64,000 bases of DNA from positions 1-64,000 of the forward strand of contig VFKA01000072.1 in the NCBI GenBank assembly GCA_009885795.1, given 5' to 3'. The stretch comes from Rhodospirillales bacterium (GTDB lineage Bacteria > Pseudomonadota > Alphaproteobacteria > Dongiales > Dongiaceae). Below, piece by piece: positions 32,541 through 44,629 of the stretch; within the stretch, counting starts at the first letter, position 1; each line of letters starts with the position of its first letter. The notes below the pieces were generated by a model. That model saw only the letters and a program-made list of their open reading frames with translations, did no database searches and was not told the DNA's origin. The position numbers were made by a program, and so were the translations under genes.

Positions 32541-34182
32541 CATTCCCCAGATGAACCCCAGTTCCGAGCGTCAGAGTAGCCATTTGGGCTCCCTGCGGCA
32601 ATCTGGAATACGATAGGAGCGCCGATGTTGCCTCGCCCGTCAAACATGGCCTTGCCCGGCCGCTGAGGGCTCTATTTTCCGTTAACAAGGCGCGCCTCTC
32701 CCTTCGTTTCTCTCCGACCGCACGGCGGTCAAACGCCTCACGCTGGCGCCGCAAGAGGCGGCGGCCTCAATTCCGCGATGAGCCGCAGGATTTCTCCAAA
32801 CAGACCCCTTGGTACCGCAACCTCCGCCATCTGGAAGATGACGTAGCGCGCATGCGTGACGATCTTGGCGCCGATCTTGACGAGCTTCTCCCGCAGGCTG
32901 GTCAACGACCGGTGCGCGACAGCCTCGGGCAATGCCAGCGTCCGCATGAAGTTGGCGAGATTGTAGGCCAGCGCATGAAGCTGAAGCCGGACGGCGTTGG
33001 CGGCGAACGAGCAGCATGACAGCCGAGTCCACTTCATCGCGTTCTTGCCTTCCTTGATCCACTGCTCCGCCGTGCCGCGCTGATTGTAAAAACCAACGAT
33101 GCGCTCGGCGGGGCGTGACAGGTTGGTGACGATGAAGCCGACGCGGGGATAAAGCTCGCCGGGGTGCCATTCGACCTTCGCCACCACCCGGCGCGCTGTC
33201 TTCCAGCTCTGCGCCTGATAGCTGAAGCTGGCGTAGTATCGCCGCACCTCGATGGGAGGGCGGCCAACGGGGCGCTTGAGCAAATAGCCGATGCTCTCCT
33301 GCAACACGTTGTTGGCCGGCAGCCGGATCGCGTACTTGTAGCCCTCGGCTTCGAGAAACTCGTAGACCTCAGGGTTCGCAAAGGCGGCATCGGCGCGGAA
33401 GTAGCGGCGCTTGAACTTGCCCCGATAGCGAGCCACGACCGGCTCCAACACCTCCCGCCAGCCGTCGGCCGAGTGGACGTTGCCGGAACGCAGGGCGCAC
33501 CGTTCGAGGTCGCCGAACTGGTTGAACACGAACAGCGGATGGTAGCAGGTACAGGCGAAATGGCCGTTGTAGGCGGTGCCTTCTTGCTCCCCGAAGGTTG
33601 GGCTGACGCTGCTGTCCATGTCGAGCACGATGCCGTTCGGCGGACGGCGGTCATGGACACGCTCGATCCATTGCCCGGACAGTTCGACCAGCGCCGCGTG
33701 GTTCTCGTCGGTGGCCAGGAACTCAGTCTCGAAGCGCCCCATCTGGCTGGTGGAAGCGGCCTGCTTCGCAACAGCGCGCCCGCCGACGATCCAACGCATC
33801 GCCGGATCACGCCCAAGCCGGTCGGCGTCGTTCACGTCCTCGTAGCCGCCGAGGCGGGCGAAGACGGACTGGCGAAACAAGCCCGTCATCGCGTGCTGGC
33901 CGTTCTTGCCCGTACGCGGATCGACGAGTTGATCGCCGACCATGCCGGTCAACCCGAGGGCGTCATCGAGTTCGCGGTAGGCTAGTAGTCCAGCGTCGGA
34001 CGTGACCTTGGAGCCGTGGAAATCCAGCTTGAGCCGATGGTCGAAATCTAGCCTCAAAGGCTCGTTCAAGGATTCACCCGTCGGGTTCGTCATCAGCGTC
34101 GTCTCCAGCCGAGCCAAAACATTGATTCTTATATCAGAATCATGGCCGCATCGCAAACGACGAACCGATCTGGGAAATGCGG
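32541..34182 (-). mobile_element. IS1380-family insertion sequence (boundaries provisional)
   Basis: A single transposase gene fills a 1.64-kb interval. CATTCCCCAGAT at 32541-32552 faces ATCTGGGAAATG at 34169-34180, matching at 11 of 12 positions as inverted ends; that length suits IS1380-type elements. A short target duplication was not recognised, so the limits are tentative. Confidence 0.45.
32738..34093 (-). CDS. IS1380-family DDE transposase
   Basis: The 451-residue transposase starts MTNPTGESLNEPLRLDFDHRL. It shows the DDE-fold landmarks of IS1380: GIVLDMDSSVSPTFGEQEG with first Asp, FRADAAFANPEVYEFLE with second Asp, and the late RGTAEQWIKEGKNAMKWTRLSC with the Glu. The frame is complete, so the copy may be active. 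ATG 34093 is chosen over an upstream start at 34156, which adds non-homologous residues. Confidence 0.93.
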   Translation of the reverse strand: MTNPTGESLNEPLRLDFDHRLKLDFHGSKVTSDAGLLAYRELDDALGLTGMVGDQLVDPRTGKNGQHAMTGLFRQSVFARLGGYEDVNDADRLGRDPAMRWIVGGRAVAKQAASTSQMGRFETEFLATDENHAALVELSGQWIERVHDRRPPNGIVLDMDSSVSPTFGEQEGTAYNGHFACTCYHPLFVFNQFGDLERCALRSGNVHSADGWREVLEPVVARYRGKFKRRYFRADAAFANPEVYEFLEAEGYKYAIRLPANNVLQESIGYLLKRPVGRPPIEVRRYYASFSYQAQSWKTARRVVAKVEWHPGELYPRVGFIVTNLSRPAERIVGFYNQRGTAEQWIKEGKNAMKWTRLSCCSFAANAVRLQLHALAYNLANFMRTLALPEAVAHRSLTSLREKLVKIGAKIVTHARYVIFQMAEVAVPRGLFGEILRLIAELRPPPLAAPA

Positions 34183-35638: not shown

Positions 35639-35967
35639 AGCGTCCGTCCATCGAGCGGGTGGCGGCCGGCGCGGTCCTCGACCTCGACCACCCACAGATC
35701 GGGATCGCGCTTCAAGGCGCGCGCCACATAGGCTTCGGCCGTGTCCTCGGTCGAAATATCGGGCGCCGGCAGCCATCCGAGCTCGCCATCGAGGTCGCGG
35801 GCCTGGCTGACGACGCGCCAGCCGCGTTCGAACCCGTTGATCTTGAGCAAGACCGTGCCGCGCACGGCGTCGCCCCGGCGAGAAAGCACGACCGGATCGC
35901 CGATGCCATCGGCGCGTCGGATATAGGCGGAGACCCACATTTCAGTGGCCAGGCGATGCTCGGTCAT
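35635..35967 (-). CDS. DUF1491 family protein
   Basis: The 110-residue protein starts MTEHRLATEMWVSAYIRRAD and contains GTVLLKINGFERGWRVVSQ and DPDLWVVEVEDRAGRHPLDG, the conserved stretches of DUF1491, a small family of alphaproteobacteria without known function. It overlaps the next gene by ATGA and starts 91 bases from the divergent OGT-like gene. Confidence 0.87.
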   Translation of the reverse strand: MTEHRLATEMWVSAYIRRADGIGDPVVLSRRGDAVRGTVLLKINGFERGWRVVSQARDLDGELGWLPAPDISTEDTAEAYVARALKRDPDLWVVEVEDRAGRHPLDGRTL

Positions 35968-36058
35968 GGAAGGCCAGTCTATCAGCAGCGCGCTAAATCA
36001 TGACAGGGGGCGCGGGGTCGCCTATAACCCCGCTACCCCCCGAGTGGCGTGGACTTTC

Positions 36059-38287
36059 ATGCAAGACTTGCGTCCCCAAACCCAGCTGAGCCGCGCCGCG
36101 GCGGCCCTTGCCCAGGGCCGCGCGCGCGAGGCGCTGAGTATCTGCGACCGGATGCTGAAGACGAAGACCGCGTCGCCCGACGTTCTGCACGTCAAGGGCC
36201 TGGCCCTTCACACGCTGGGCGATAACGGGAAGGCCATCGAAGCGATCGAAGCCGCGATCAAAATGTCGCCCGATCGCGCCGACTTCCAGGGGAATCTCGG
36301 GCGCGCGTTGGCGGCGGGGCTTGACTACCGGCGGGCGATCCAGTCGTTCGAAAAGGCGCTCCAGCTGGAGCCGAAATCGCCCCGCGACCTGTCGGACCTC
36401 GGCACGGCGCTGTGCTGTTTGGAGCGGGTGGAGGAAGGAGCGGGCGCCTATGCGCGGGCGCTGGAGTTGGCGCCGAATGACGGCGCCACCGCGCTGCGCC
36501 TTGCCCGCGCCGAGGCAATTTTAGGCCGGCACGAGGCGGCGCTGGCCCGCGCGATCCGCGTCATGGCAGCGGTCCCCGAATTGCGGGGCCGCGCCGAAGC
36601 CGTGATCGGCCTCGTCCATCTCGAGCGGCGGCAGTGGCCGCAAGCGGTCGAGGCGTTTACCCGGAGCCTCGAAGCCAGTCCGGCCCAGATCGAGGCGCTG
36701 CTTGGCCGCGCCAAGGCGCGGATGCGCCTTCGCGAGGCTGCGGGAGCACGGGCCGACGCGGCCGAGGCGGCGCGCCGGATGCCGGCCGACCCGGAGGCGC
36801 AACTGCTGCGGGGTCAAGTCGAGAAGGAGTTCGGCGAGGTGGCCGCCGCCGCCGCCGCCTTCGAGCGCGCCATGGCGTCGCGCCCGCTCGACCTCCGCCC
36901 GCGCTGGGAGCGCGCCAACCTGCTTCCCGTCGCCTACGATTCGCAAGAGGACATCGCGCGCTACCGCAACGATTGGCGCAAGCGCATGATGGGCATCGCC
37001 GAGACCCTCGTCCTGGATACGCCCGAGCGGATCAACGCCGCCGTTTGGGCGATCAAGAGCGCCAACAACTTCCGCCTCGCCTATCAGGGCATGGACGACC
37101 GAAAGCTGCAGGAAATTTATGGCGGCGTCCTCGCCCGCATCGCCGCCGCGCGGTATCCGGAACACGCCCAGCGGCCGGCCGCGCCGCGGCGCCAACGCCC
37201 CAGGGTCGGGTTCGTGTCCGAATTCCTGCGCCGGCATTCGATCTGGAAGACGCATGGCGCGTGGATCACCCGAAGCGGCAAGCAGATCGAAAAATACGTC
37301 TATTACACCGGCGCCGATTTCGACGACGGCTACACCGGCGCCATACGCGAGGCCGCGGACGTTTTCGTGCACGAAACTTCGGTCGCGAACCTCATCCCGC
37401 TCATCGCCGGCCACAACCTCGACGTTCTCGTCTATCTCGATCACGGCATGAGCGTCGATTTGCAGATCGCCGCCGCCTTGTGGCTGGCGCCGGTGCAAGT
37501 GAACGGCCTCGGCCATCCGGTGACCTCCGGTCTTCCGACGATGACGCATGCGTTCACCAGCGCGCTCATGGAACCCGAGGACGGCGACCTGCATTACAGC
37601 GAACGGCTGGTCCGGCTCGCCAACACCGGCGCTTGCTACGGACTGGCGCGCATCGAGGACGATCTCGCCCTCGTGCCGCGCCCGGAGCGCGATGGAGGGC
37701 GGGCCGAGTATCTCTGCGCCCAGAATCTCCAGAAATACCTGCCTCGACATGACTGGACCTTCGCGGCGATCGCGGCCGAGCTGCCCTCGGCGCGGTTCCA
37801 TTTCATCGCCCGCGAGGGCGAGGGACGCGAGGTCTTCGTCCGCCGCCTGGCCCGCGCCTTCGCCGCCAAGCGGCTCGATCACGAGGCGCATTGCCGGTTC
37901 CACCCGGGCCTCGATCCGCACGGTTATCTGGCGCTCAACCTTGCCTGCGATGTGTTCCTCGACGGCATATCCTGGTCCGGCAACAACACGGCGCACGAGG
38001 CGCTGGCCTGCGGCTTGCCCATCGTCACCTGGCCCGGTCCGTTCATGCGCGCGCGGCACTGCCTGGCGATCCTGGAGCGGCTGGGCCTGACCGAGACCGT
38101 CGTCTCGAGCGCCGAGGCGTTCGTGACGGAGGCGGTTCGGCTCGGCCGCGACCGCGAATGGCGCCGGCATTTGAGCGCCGAGGGCGGGCGGCGCCTGTCC
38201 CGCCTGTTCGACGATCCGGCGCCGGTGCGGAGCCTCGAAAAAAGCCTAGCCGCGCTCGCTGGCGGGATTGGCGAAAATGACCTATAG
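36059..38287 (+). CDS. TPR-containing OGT/SPINDLY-like glycosyltransferase (GT41 type)
   Basis: The 742-residue protein has about eight TPR units over residues 1-310 (e.g. ADFQGNLGRALAAGLDYRRAIQSFEKAL) and a C-terminal GT-B catalytic region from about residue 375: RPRVGFVSEFLRRHSIWKTH, GHPVTSGLPTMTHAFTS and the UDP-site DGISWSGNNTAHEALACG followed by LPIVTWPG. This is the O-GlcNAc transferase/SPINDLY family, which glycosylates protein Ser/Thr; bacterial targets include flagellin and adhesins. The GxPxTxG motif is slightly changed. Target unknown. ATG 36059 fits the TPR start. Confidence 0.88.
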   Translation: MQDLRPQTQLSRAAAALAQGRAREALSICDRMLKTKTASPDVLHVKGLALHTLGDNGKAIEAIEAAIKMSPDRADFQGNLGRALAAGLDYRRAIQSFEKALQLEPKSPRDLSDLGTALCCLERVEEGAGAYARALELAPNDGATALRLARAEAILGRHEAALARAIRVMAAVPELRGRAEAVIGLVHLERRQWPQAVEAFTRSLEASPAQIEALLGRAKARMRLREAAGARADAAEAARRMPADPEAQLLRGQVEKEFGEVAAAAAAFERAMASRPLDLRPRWERANLLPVAYDSQEDIARYRNDWRKRMMGIAETLVLDTPERINAAVWAIKSANNFRLAYQGMDDRKLQEIYGGVLARIAAARYPEHAQRPAAPRRQRPRVGFVSEFLRRHSIWKTHGAWITRSGKQIEKYVYYTGADFDDGYTGAIREAADVFVHETSVANLIPLIAGHNLDVLVYLDHGMSVDLQIAAALWLAPVQVNGLGHPVTSGLPTMTHAFTSALMEPEDGDLHYSERLVRLANTGACYGLARIEDDLALVPRPERDGGRAEYLCAQNLQKYLPRHDWTFAAIAAELPSARFHFIAREGEGREVFVRRLARAFAAKRLDHEAHCRFHPGLDPHGYLALNLACDVFLDGISWSGNNTAHEALACGLPIVTWPGPFMRARHCLAILERLGLTETVVSSAEAFVTEAVRLGRDREWRRHLSAEGGRRLSRLFDDPAPVRSLEKSLAALAGGIGENDL

Positions 38288-40808: not shown

Positions 40809-41792
40809 TCAGGTAGCGAGCGTCCGCGTCTTCTCGATCAACACCTTGGCCGCGACATCCCAGGCGCCGAACTGGGCCAGATACGCGGCCTTGCCGCCCA
40901 TGGCTTCACGGACCTTCTTGGCGATCTGGGAGGAGAAGGCCCAGGTATTTCCCGCGGCGTTGATCTCGATGATGTAGAGCTTGCCGTCGCGCCGATCGCG
41001 CAGGATATCGCAGGCCTGCAAGGGAATCCCCGGGCAGGCGGCATAGACCTTTCGGGCGAAGTCGAGGATGGCCGTATCCCTGGTGACTGTCAGCCTGTCG
41101 GACATAGCGAACGACAGAAGCGACGGGTGCTTGGGTTCGACGACCCCGTTCGCGAGCGTTTGATCGTCGGCGTCGAGGTCCGGCCGCTCTATCGGAGACC
41201 GGTTGGTCATCGCGTAAACGACCTCGCCAAGAAGCGTCAGCACCCGGTGATAGGTCGCGTGCTTGCCGGTGTCGATGAACTGCTGGACCAGCGCGGGGCC
41301 GCGATTCAGGAAATGATCGGGCGTCATGCCAGCGGGCGACAGCTCTTGCAGCCGGCGCGTTCGAACAAGCAGGCAGTTTCCGCCTTTCGACGTCAATGCC
41401 TGCGGCAGTGGCTTCAGAATGACGAGATCGCTCCAGATCGCCGGGTCGTAGGTCTTGCCGAACTCGAAGCGCTCCGTCATCGGCGTGTCGATGCCGGCAT
41501 CGCGGAAGCGGGCGTACTCTTCGAGCTTGCTCATCTTCCGATTGTGAATGATGGGACCGCGCCGCGGATTGAAATTGCCGAGGTGTCCCAGCCCGACGGT
41601 CAGCGTGGGCCGGTCCCATGGGATTTTCGGCATCGCCTCGGGCGGGTCGCGGGGAAGGACGACAAAGACGCCGATGTCGCCGGCGCGCCGCGCAATGACC
41701 TGCCCGATCTCCCTGAGGTCGTTCGGATCGGACCAATAGTCTTGCGCGACGATCACGAGATTCTTCTTGGCCGGGGGATTGGCAAGGAACAT
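40809..41792 (-). CDS. ATP-grasp-like paralogue A of a tandem triplet
   Basis: The 327-residue protein begins MFLANPPAKKNLVIVAQDYW. An N-terminal pre-grasp part reaches GNFNPRRGPIIHNRKMSKLEE, then GIDTPMTERF as in RimK-type enzymes. The ATP-grasp shows LVILKPLPQALTSKGGNC (Lys and glycine loop), ALVQQFIDTGKHATYHRVL and the metal-binding end CDILRDRRDG then YIIEINAAGNTW. ATP-grasp enzymes join a carboxylate to an amine or thiol via acyl phosphate; substrates here are unknown. The N-half is nearly identical in style to copy B, while the middle (RSPIERPDLDADDQT) matches copy C, suggesting gene conversion. It is the last gene of the operon, nine bases after B. Confidence 0.72.
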   Translation of the reverse strand: MFLANPPAKKNLVIVAQDYWSDPNDLREIGQVIARRAGDIGVFVVLPRDPPEAMPKIPWDRPTLTVGLGHLGNFNPRRGPIIHNRKMSKLEEYARFRDAGIDTPMTERFEFGKTYDPAIWSDLVILKPLPQALTSKGGNCLLVRTRRLQELSPAGMTPDHFLNRGPALVQQFIDTGKHATYHRVLTLLGEVVYAMTNRSPIERPDLDADDQTLANGVVEPKHPSLLSFAMSDRLTVTRDTAILDFARKVYAACPGIPLQACDILRDRRDGKLYIIEINAAGNTWAFSSQIAKKVREAMGGKAAYLAQFGAWDVAAKVLIEKTRTLAT

Positions 41793-41801
41793 GGCCCCTC
41801 G

Positions 41802-42788
41802 TCAATCCGCCAGCGCCCGAGTCTTCTCGATCAAGGCCTTTGCCGCAACCTCCCAAGCGTCTAGTTGCCCGACAAACGCGCCCTTGCCGCCCAGGGCTTC
41901 ACGCTGCACGCCGTAGCTGTAGGACGAAAAGTGCCAGGTGTTCCCCGCGGCGTTGATTTCCAGGGCGAACAATTTTCCATCGCCGTTCCGACGCAGGATG
42001 TCGCAGGCCTGCAAGGGGATCGCCGGAAAGGCGTCATGGATGCGGCGGGCAAAGGCGAAAATTTCATCGTCGAGCCGGAAGAACCTGCGGTCCTTGTAGG
42101 CGACGGCCTGCCCTATTTTGGGATGTCTGGGTTCGACGATGGCGCTTTCGATCGCGGGGTCGTCGGCGTCGAAATCGGGCCGTTCGAAAGGGACGATCGA
42201 CGCGATGGCGTAAAGGACTTCTCCGAACAGCGTCAGCACGCGCCAGCTTGTCGGGTGCTTGCCTGTATCGACGAATTGCTGGACGATCGCCGGTCCCTTG
42301 GCGAGGAAATGGTCGGGTGCCAGGCCCTCGGGAGACAACGCCCGCAACCTTCGCGTTCGAATGAGTTGGCAGGTTCCGCCCTTCGAGGTCATCGCCTGGG
42401 GCAGCGGCTTCAGCACGACGAAATCGCTCCAGATTGCCGGATCGTAGGTCTTGCCATACTCGAAGCGCTCCGTCATCGGTGTGTCGATGCCGGCATGACG
42501 GAAGTGGGCGTGTTCGTCGAGCTTGTTGATCGCCCGATTGTGAATGACCGGGCCCCGCCGCGGGTTGAAATTGCCGAGGTGTCCCAGCCCGACGGTCAGC
42601 GTGGGCCGGTCCCAGGGGATTTGCGGCATCGCCTCGGGCGGGTCGCGGGGAAGGACGACAAAGACACCGATGTCGCCGGCGCGCCGCGCGATGACCTGGC
42701 CGATTTCCTTGAGGTCGTTCGCGTCGGACCAGTAGTCTTGCGCGACGAGTACGAGGTTCTTCTTGGCCGGGGGATTGGCAAGGAACAT
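41802..42788 (-). CDS. ATP-grasp-like paralogue B of a tandem triplet
   Basis: The 328-residue protein shares the first 15 residues of copy A almost exactly (MFLANPPAKKNLVLVAQDYW) and the same landmarks: GPVIHNRAINKLDEH, VVLKPLPQAMTSKGGTC, AIVQQFVDTGKHPTSWRVL and FALEINAAGNTWHFSS. It differs from A and C around VPFERPDFDADDPAI. Nine bases separate it from copy C upstream and from copy A downstream. The final ENA(G)NTW-type motif replaces the usual E-x-N-x-x-pg of RimK enzymes. Fold inference is fair; substrate unknown. Confidence 0.72.
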   Translation of the reverse strand: MFLANPPAKKNLVLVAQDYWSDANDLKEIGQVIARRAGDIGVFVVLPRDPPEAMPQIPWDRPTLTVGLGHLGNFNPRRGPVIHNRAINKLDEHAHFRHAGIDTPMTERFEYGKTYDPAIWSDFVVLKPLPQAMTSKGGTCQLIRTRRLRALSPEGLAPDHFLAKGPAIVQQFVDTGKHPTSWRVLTLFGEVLYAIASIVPFERPDFDADDPAIESAIVEPRHPKIGQAVAYKDRRFFRLDDEIFAFARRIHDAFPAIPLQACDILRRNGDGKLFALEINAAGNTWHFSSYSYGVQREALGGKGAFVGQLDAWEVAAKALIEKTRALAD

Positions 42789-42797
42789 GACGGCCCG

Positions 42798-43787
42798 CTA
42801 ATCCGCGAACGCCCGGGTCTTCTCGATCAACACCTTCGCCGCTACCTTCCAGGCGCCGAGCTGTCCGACAAAGGCGTCGCGGCCGCCCAGGGCGTCGCGG
42901 ATCTTCTTGAAGATTTCGGACGAGAAATGCCAGGTGTTTCCGCCGGCATTGATCTCGATGAGATAGAGCTTGCCGTCACGCTGGTCGCGCAAGATGTCGC
43001 AACCCTGCAAGGGAATGCTTGGAAAGGCGGCATAGACCGACCGCGCGAAATCGAACATCGCCGCGTCCTGAAAGAACGTGATCCGGTCCTTGGTCGCGAA
43101 CCGCTCCTTGATCAGCGGGTGCTTCGGCTCGATGATGGCGTTCTCGATCGTCTGGTCGTCGGCGTCGAGGTCCGGCCGCTCGATCGGAGACCTGTTCATG
43201 GTCGCGTAGAGGGCCTCGCCGAAAAGGGTCAGGACGCGCCAATGCGTGGGATTCTTGCCGGTGTCGACGAATTGCTGAACGAGCGCCGGGCCCTGGGCGA
43301 GGGGATGATCGGCGGGGATTTTCGAGTGCGACAGCGCGTTGAGGCGCGCGGTCCGTATCAGTTGGGCGGAATCGCCTTTCGACGACATCTTGAGCGAGAG
43401 AGGCTTGAAGATAACGAATTCGCCCCAGAGCGCTTCGTCGTAAGCAGCGCCGGCCTTGAAACGCTCCGTGCGCGGCATGGCGATGCCGGCCGCGAGGCTC
43501 CTTGAATATTGGTCGAGCTTGGAAATGGCCTTGTTACGAAAGACACGCCCACGCCGAGGATTGAATTGCCCGAGCATGCCGAAACTGACGGTCAATGTCG
43601 GGCGGTCCCAGGACAGTCCGGGAACCGTATTGTCCCGGTCGTTCCGCGAAACCAGGACGGTGTCGATGTCGTCGGCGTTGCGCTCGATCTCCTCGGCGAT
43701 CGCCAGGAGATCGCGCGGATCGAACCATTGGTCGCGGGCCACCAGGATGAGGTTCTTCTTCTGGCTGTCTTGCGGCGCCGTCATCAT
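42798..43787 (-). CDS. ATP-grasp-like paralogue C, first of a tandem triplet
   Basis: The 329-residue protein is the most divergent copy at its N-terminus (MMTAPQDSQKKNLILVARDQW, FDPRDLLAIAEEI) but keeps SWDRPTLTVSFGMLGQFNPR, VIFKPLSLKMSSKGDSAQL, ALVQQFVDTGKNPTHWRVL and YLIEINAGGNTWHFSS. Its ATG overlaps the sulfotransferase stop as ATGA, so translation is coupled. The three copies keep the same length and the same catalytic landmarks, which argues they are all functional and not decaying duplicates. Confidence 0.73.
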   Translation of the reverse strand: MMTAPQDSQKKNLILVARDQWFDPRDLLAIAEEIERNADDIDTVLVSRNDRDNTVPGLSWDRPTLTVSFGMLGQFNPRRGRVFRNKAISKLDQYSRSLAAGIAMPRTERFKAGAAYDEALWGEFVIFKPLSLKMSSKGDSAQLIRTARLNALSHSKIPADHPLAQGPALVQQFVDTGKNPTHWRVLTLFGEALYATMNRSPIERPDLDADDQTIENAIIEPKHPLIKERFATKDRITFFQDAAMFDFARSVYAAFPSIPLQGCDILRDQRDGKLYLIEINAGGNTWHFSSEIFKKIRDALGGRDAFVGQLGAWKVAAKVLIEKTRAFAD

Positions 43788-44629
43788 GGCCTCTGTTTCG
43801 ATGCGATCGGCGCATAGCGCCGCCGTAAGGAGTCTTCATCCACGTCCGTCGTATCATAGCCGAGGCGGGTGGCGATCTCGATGACGTGGGGATGCCGGCC
43901 GATGAGAGTCGGATCCAACTCGGCCCGCGCCGTGCGCCGGTAGCCGTCGGTTGGCTGGTTGCGGGCGGCGTAGATGGACCGCCGGCGCGGCAGGTCGAGG
44001 AAGTCGAGAATCCGGTCGAGCGCGTCGCCGCGGAACAGATCCTCGTAGCGCAGCCGCAGCCACGGCACTCCCAGAGTGCTTTCGAGGTTGAGCGCGAAAC
44101 CGTGCAGCTCGGCCCAGAAATACAGGCACTTCTCGAACGCCGTCATCGCTGCCCAGCGCTCGCGGTAGTCGGGGAAGAGCACCGCCTCGTCCCACGGCGT
44201 CGGCAGGGCGCGGTCGGTGACGTGATGGCCGCTGGCGGCCGAGTAGTAGCCATGCGTCAGCATGGAGGACGCCGACGCCAGGGGATGGCGCGTCAGGTGC
44301 ACGATCCGCAAGCGCCCGGCGAAACGGCGGGCGAAATAGGGAATCGCCGCATGGCACGGCCAGCCGCATTCGATGTACCGGCTCCAGCGCAACAGGGCGT
44401 CGATGCGGTCGGCATGGGCGATGACGGCGCGCGTATCGCCGGCGGGGTCGGGATCGCCCAGCGCCCGCAACTGACGCGGAAAATAATCCATGTAGAGGGG
44501 TTCATGCGTCACCTCCGCCACGTCCGGATAGGCGTCGCCCAGATGCTGGGCCAGCCATTGGGTGCCGGAACGCCCGCTCGACAGCACGAAGGCCGCGTAT
44601 TCGCTCATCCGCTCGGTCGTCCGTGACAT
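43784..44629 (-). CDS. Sulfotransferase family protein
   Basis: The 281-residue protein has the PAPS 5'-phosphosulfate loop AFVLSSGRSGTQWLAQHL at about residues 13-30 and the 3'-phosphate motif RIVHLTRHPLASASS at about 109-123. Such enzymes move sulfate from PAPS to a hydroxyl or amine on sugars, lipids or peptides. The start is either ATG 44629 or ATG 44608 (MSEYAAFVL); neither has a strong ribosome site. It opens a four-gene operon with the ATP-grasp triplet and is divergent from the MFS gene by 86 bases. Confidence 0.85.
   Translation of the reverse strand: MSRTTERMSEYAAFVLSSGRSGTQWLAQHLGDAYPDVAEVTHEPLYMDYFPRQLRALGDPDPAGDTRAVIAHADRIDALLRWSRYIECGWPCHAAIPYFARRFAGRLRIVHLTRHPLASASSMLTHGYYSAASGHHVTDRALPTPWDEAVLFPDYRERWAAMTAFEKCLYFWAELHGFALNLESTLGVPWLRLRYEDLFRGDALDRILDFLDLPRRRSIYAARNQPTDGYRRTARAELDPTLIGRHPHVIEIATRLGYDTTDVDEDSLRRRYAPIASKQRP

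Follow-up and report, generated by a model that had tools for sequence, protein, structure and literature searches.

The closest described systems are cases of gene conversion between tandem bacterial paralogues, or concerted evolution, in which a bounded tract of high identity occupies two adjoining copies and is visible at silent sites, and in which the copy number is kept. Gene conversion in Mycobacterium tuberculosis provides a precedent (PMC12046097). The locus presented here, a tandem array of three genes (A, B and C) in a window of 64,000 nucleotides from a Rhodospirillales bacterium, resembles these systems in the tract, in its visibility at silent sites and in the retained copy number. 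It differs from them in that there is one tract only, that the tract has partly decayed (~10% divergence), and that it is known from one genome. The A/B event would be nothing out of the ordinary for the evolution of a tandem array, here in a gene family that is poorly described, and would serve as a small and fairly clear case of conversion between tandem genes in a bacterium.

The three genes are tandem paralogues, all on the minus strand and spaced by 9-base gaps (Table 1), and the open reading frames lie where the sequence-only reading of the window had placed them. The genome (3.46 Mb, 103 contigs, 99.89% complete) contains just these three copies at E-values up to 0.001. The gene upstream of C, which probably belongs to the same operon as the array, matched Sulfotransfer_3 in Pfam with an E-value of 1.4e-4; the score of 22.6 bits is below the curated cut-off of 27. 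Elsewhere in the window, a DDE transposase (DDE_Tnp_1_4, E 5.3e-131) was present at 32738-34156, ~6.7 kb from the array. A TPR protein encoded at 35945-38287 matched Glyco_transf_41 towards the C-terminus (E 2.3e-11), and its gene adjoins genes resembling parts of an amino-acid ABC transporter.

Table 1. Features of the array and its upstream neighbour, in window coordinates.
Feature	Position	Strand	Description	Basis
Gene A	40809..41792	minus	Third and last copy in transcription order, 327 aa	ORF list, alignment
Gene B	41802..42788	minus	Second copy, 328 aa	ORF list, alignment
Gene C	42798..43787	minus	First copy, 329 aa	ORF list, alignment
A/B-common tract in A	41412..41792	minus	From the ATG to about alignment column 128; outer estimate column 142 (41370)	Segmentation, MaxChi
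Matching tract in B	42408..42788	minus	Extends to 42366 at the outer estimate	MaxChi, segmentation
RSPIERPDLDADDQT block of A	41157..41201	minus	Protein identical to C; holds the 26-nt exact A-C run	Alignment
Upstream gene, weak Sulfotransfer_3 match	43784..44629	minus	4-base overlap with the start of C	Pfam, coordinates

No Pfam model matched A, B or C at E-values up to 0.1. Below the respective cut-offs, RimK (PF08443) matched A with an E-value of 0.14 and 12.2 bits (cut-off 21 bits), and the NCBIfam STM4014 family (NF038074), which we take to be linked to ATP-grasp, matched C with an E-value of 0.0073 and 15.7 bits (cut-off 175 bits). At E-values up to 0.1, weak matches were obtained to ATP-grasp_3 (PF02655) in three of the ten family members (best E 0.013) and to R2K_3 (PF14243) in two (best E 0.076). 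A block of the form E-x-N-x-x-G-N-T-W is invariant in the family and resembles, in our assessment, the metal-binding end of the ATP-grasp fold. The PDB profile search returned inositol-tetrakisphosphate 1-kinase, presumably an ATP-grasp enzyme, with E-values of 0.43-0.48; this match adds little, as it ranked behind the unrelated chains of an ephrin receptor (E 0.2) and ribosomal protein L29 (E 0.37). Searching the PDB with B alone returned one uncharacterised protein (E 0.45), and an AlphaFold model built from the three window proteins was too poor to judge the fold (mean pLDDT 35.9). On these sequence resemblances, A, B and C are likely, though unproven, ATP-grasp-type enzymes (putative ligases). 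The family had no confident match in these Pfam, NCBIfam and PDB sequence searches, a finding that, with its patchy distribution, is mildly useful for annotation.

The gene family is patchily distributed in the sampled genomes. Single-copy relatives were present in 7 of the 40 genomes of one other family of the class, all belonging to one genus, and of 385 genomes sampled from the class two had the gene, namely the genome studied here and that of one of the seven single-copy relatives. Among 61 relatives, among 17 genomes from the order and in a sample of 398 from the phylum, the gene was found in the genome studied here only, and none of the relative, order, class, phylum and family samples yielded an orthologous array for comparison. 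No relatives were confirmed by tblastn among genome contigs or among viral contigs, and there was no match in plasmids (query B) or phages (query C). Near one single-copy relative (L015) lie, among others, genes for a class II ribonucleotide reductase and for a class II tRNA synthetase, which give no hint at a pathway.

Over the full length of the three-way alignment, amino acid identity was 71% for A-B, 57% for A-C and 58% for B-C. The A-B distance was not uniform along the gene. The first ~140 columns of A closely matched B, as the sequence-only reading had noted, and the identity in 40-residue windows was 92-97% for windows starting at columns 1-41, 78-88% for those starting at 51-101, and 36-70% for those starting at 131 or later. 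DNA identity between A and B was 0.898 up to column 142 and 0.648 beyond it (MaxChi 81.1), and none of the 2000 codon shuffles reached this value. Two segments were preferred by the BIC. The change fell at columns 128/129 both for the full set of codons and for synonymous sites, and for residues at columns 139/140. Within the 5′ tract, A and B were identical at 378 bases and differed at 45 of 423. Collapse of the assembly was considered as a source of the A-B similarity, and this number of differences is not expected from collapse. In the 5′/3′ comparisons below, the ~20 columns between the two parts (142/143 to 161) and one column with a gap in A were omitted.

Recombination was also assessed with our own permutation walk in place of 3SEQ (here termed 3SEQ-like), and with rooted topology tests in place of GARD. 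When A was set as the child and B and C as the parents, the 3SEQ-like walk gave a maximum descent of 50 across columns 162-296, which was reached in 0 of 20,000 shuffles. The walk was, however, also significant when B was the child (descent 25; 0/5000), and not significant when C was (descent 9; 1969/5000). The test by itself therefore does not pick out A as the mosaic gene, as the sequence-only reading would have it, and is more a marker of the A-B step than a means of identifying A.

The same step was seen at silent sites. Where A and B carry the same residue, the codons were identical at 94 of 117 sites (80%) in the 5′ part, compared with 51 of 95 (54%) in the 3′ part (Fisher p 5e-5). The codon identity expected by chance, calculated from the codon usage of ten window genes, is ~0.49, so that the A-B silent sites are nearly saturated in the 3′ part. 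The 5′ fractions of identical codons were nearer to chance for A-C (36/62) and B-C (36/64), which shows that silent sites in this part of the gene are not conserved in general.

To control for the rate along the gene, the seven single-copy relatives (L007-L013), which share 34-40% identity with A, B and C, were used as outgroups. Among the 45 pairs that can be formed from the ten genes, the ratio of 5′ to 3′ distance was 0.23 for A-B and ranged from 1.17 to 2.14 for the other 44. Relative to the outgroup rate, the ratio for A-B was 0.14 (bootstrap 0.07-0.24). The difference in synonymous identity between the parts (5′ minus 3′) was +0.272 for A-B, compared with a mean of -0.078 (range -0.182 to 0.097) for the 21 outgroup pairs. 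Selection at the protein level was rejected as the cause of the A-B step, because the step is present at silent sites too and the outgroup pairs lack a step of that size. The outgroup comparisons are the strongest evidence for an A/B exchange; as A-B is the sole outlier among the 45 pairs, the 5′ part was probably exchanged between A and B after they had diverged.

The trees for the 5′ part supported the grouping of A with B, with an AU value of 0.987 for amino acids. For DNA the AU values were 0.936 for A+B, 0.041 for A+C and 0.099 for B+C, the last of which was not rejected. In the rooted trees of the 3′ part, no topology was rejected; the AU values for AB, AC and BC were 0.32, 0.36 and 0.71 for residues, and 0.53, 0.14 and 0.58 for DNA. 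Nor was any topology rejected when the 3′ part was divided into two sub-parts (lowest AU 0.080). The best tree for the entire 3′ part joined B with C, and the branch of B was the longest (0.42-0.52), followed by those of A (0.15-0.19) and C (0.10-0.14). As the 3′ part also admits ((A,B),C), there is no conflict of topology, and the case rests on divergence and not on the trees.

In our judgement, the pattern is probably the result of a single gene conversion of the 5′ part between A and B, with the 3′ part of A not exchanged. According to this explanation, A, B and C would have started as old tandem copies of one gene and diverged to about 60-70% identity. Homologous recombination without a crossover would then have transferred a copy of the first ~130-142 codons from one of A and B to the other, more likely in the direction from B to A, and the converted tracts would later have drifted ~10% apart. 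The 3′ part of A would have kept residues inherited by A and C alike, with B differing there through the fastest evolution of the three. An exchange within the array by either gene conversion or unequal crossing-over had been suggested in the sequence-only reading, and between the two, conversion appears the more economical. One B/A crossover that left a hybrid of the 5′ part of B and the 3′ part of A would delete B, yet B is present; the crossover route would need a prior duplication of B in order to retain it. The direction from B to A is weakly favoured. If A had received the 5′ part of B, the A-C distance in the 5′ part would be expected to be inflated relative to the 3′ part, and the A-C ratio (2.14) was indeed the highest of the 45, although it was above the B-C ratio in 79% of bootstraps only.

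The same step in divergence would also be accounted for if A were a recent duplicate of B with a 3′ part derived from a C-like paralogue that was lost or not sampled, or if the 3′ part of B had been replaced by such a sequence, and the long 3′ branch of B would fit. As this requires an extra unseen gene, and the nearly complete genome has just the three copies at E-values up to 0.001, we regard it as unlikely.

The sequence-only reading had further described the middle of A as almost C, and read as a double mosaic this would mean that A began as a copy of B and that its middle or 3′ part was later overwritten by C. The description holds for a 16-residue block of A: both A and C read NRSPIERPDLDADDQT, and B has SIVPFERPDFDADDPA at this place in the three-way alignment. 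It does not extend to the 3′ part as a whole (columns 162-329), where the amino acid identity was just 68% for A-C and 66% for B-C, and the DNA identity 74% (369/501) and 68% (345/504), respectively. As B-C is close to A-C in this part, the likeness to C is not special to A. At informative residues of the 3′ part, A agreed with C at 26, B with C at 23 and A with B at 10 (A=C versus B=C, p 0.78).

Some of the nucleotide data do lean towards A-C, and together with the block and the 3SEQ-like walk they are what an overwriting by C would have in its favour. The informative nucleotide sites of the 3′ part numbered 87 for A=C, 62 for B=C and 40 for A=B (sign test of A=C versus B=C, p 0.049). The 26-nt exact run between A and C within the block had a p-value of 0.034 over the whole gene and 0.080 within the 3′ part. 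MaxChi for A-C was reached in 1 of 2000 shuffles, and a step at column 165/166 that is absent in B-C was slightly preferred for A-C by the BIC, for codons (433.0 versus 434.6) and residues (446.4 versus 451.7). The identical codons in the 3′ part numbered 73 of 111 for A-C and 57 of 107 for B-C (p 0.073). We ascribe the signals favouring A-C to the long branch of B, to a generally slower 3′ part, and to the B-derived 5′ sequence in A.

The synonymous sites argue against an overwriting by C. One segment was preferred for the synonymous A-C differences (BIC 246.8, versus 253.3 for two), and a single segment was likewise preferred for B-C. Silent identity between A and C was not significantly higher in the block (12/16) than in the remaining 3′ part (61/95; p 0.57). 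Across the 3′ part as a whole, A-C silent identity was lower than that of A-B in the 5′ part (Fisher p 0.016), so that the supposedly later event looks older, and C is unlikely to have been a donor to a recent copy of B. C was therefore rejected as the donor of the 3′ part of A, there being no synonymous C-like tract and no rejected topology, and A-C being too divergent to post-date the A-B copy. We consider the two-step history very unlikely, and of the exchanges proposed for the array only the one between A and B stands. The motif common to A and C is best read as old sequence that was presumably kept in both and altered in the fast-evolving B, with a very short conversion from C within the block being conceivable. 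A general caution follows from this: in an array with a slow copy and a fast copy, the middle copy may look like a mosaic of both, even though only one exchange is supported. The proposal that there was no recombination, with A and B as recent duplicates and relaxed or diversifying selection behind a rapid divergence of the 3′ part, agrees with the acceptance of ((A,B),C) in both parts, but is hardly credible given that the A-B silent sites are near chance in the 3′ part (51/95 against ~0.49) and not in the 5′ part (94/117), and that 0 of the 21 outgroup pairs have a step of A-B size.

Under the single conversion of the 5′ part, the exchange may also have moved a whole functional module, with the N-terminal ~130 residues of B placed on a putative C-terminal catalytic part of A. 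We think this quite unlikely; if true, A would be a domain-swapped enzyme of natural origin in an ATP-grasp-like family that is as yet undescribed, and the array would make related products with mixed specificities.

At the 3′ end of the genes, the B-C identity rose to 0.81 (0.806) over approximately the last 30 codons, from column 299 on (41805-41894 and 42801-42890), a rise that was reached in 98 of 2000 shuffles. This may hint at a conversion tract running through the gene junction. The 9-base spacers, which bear on whether a tract crosses the junction, agree at 5 of 9 positions only, as compared by eye.
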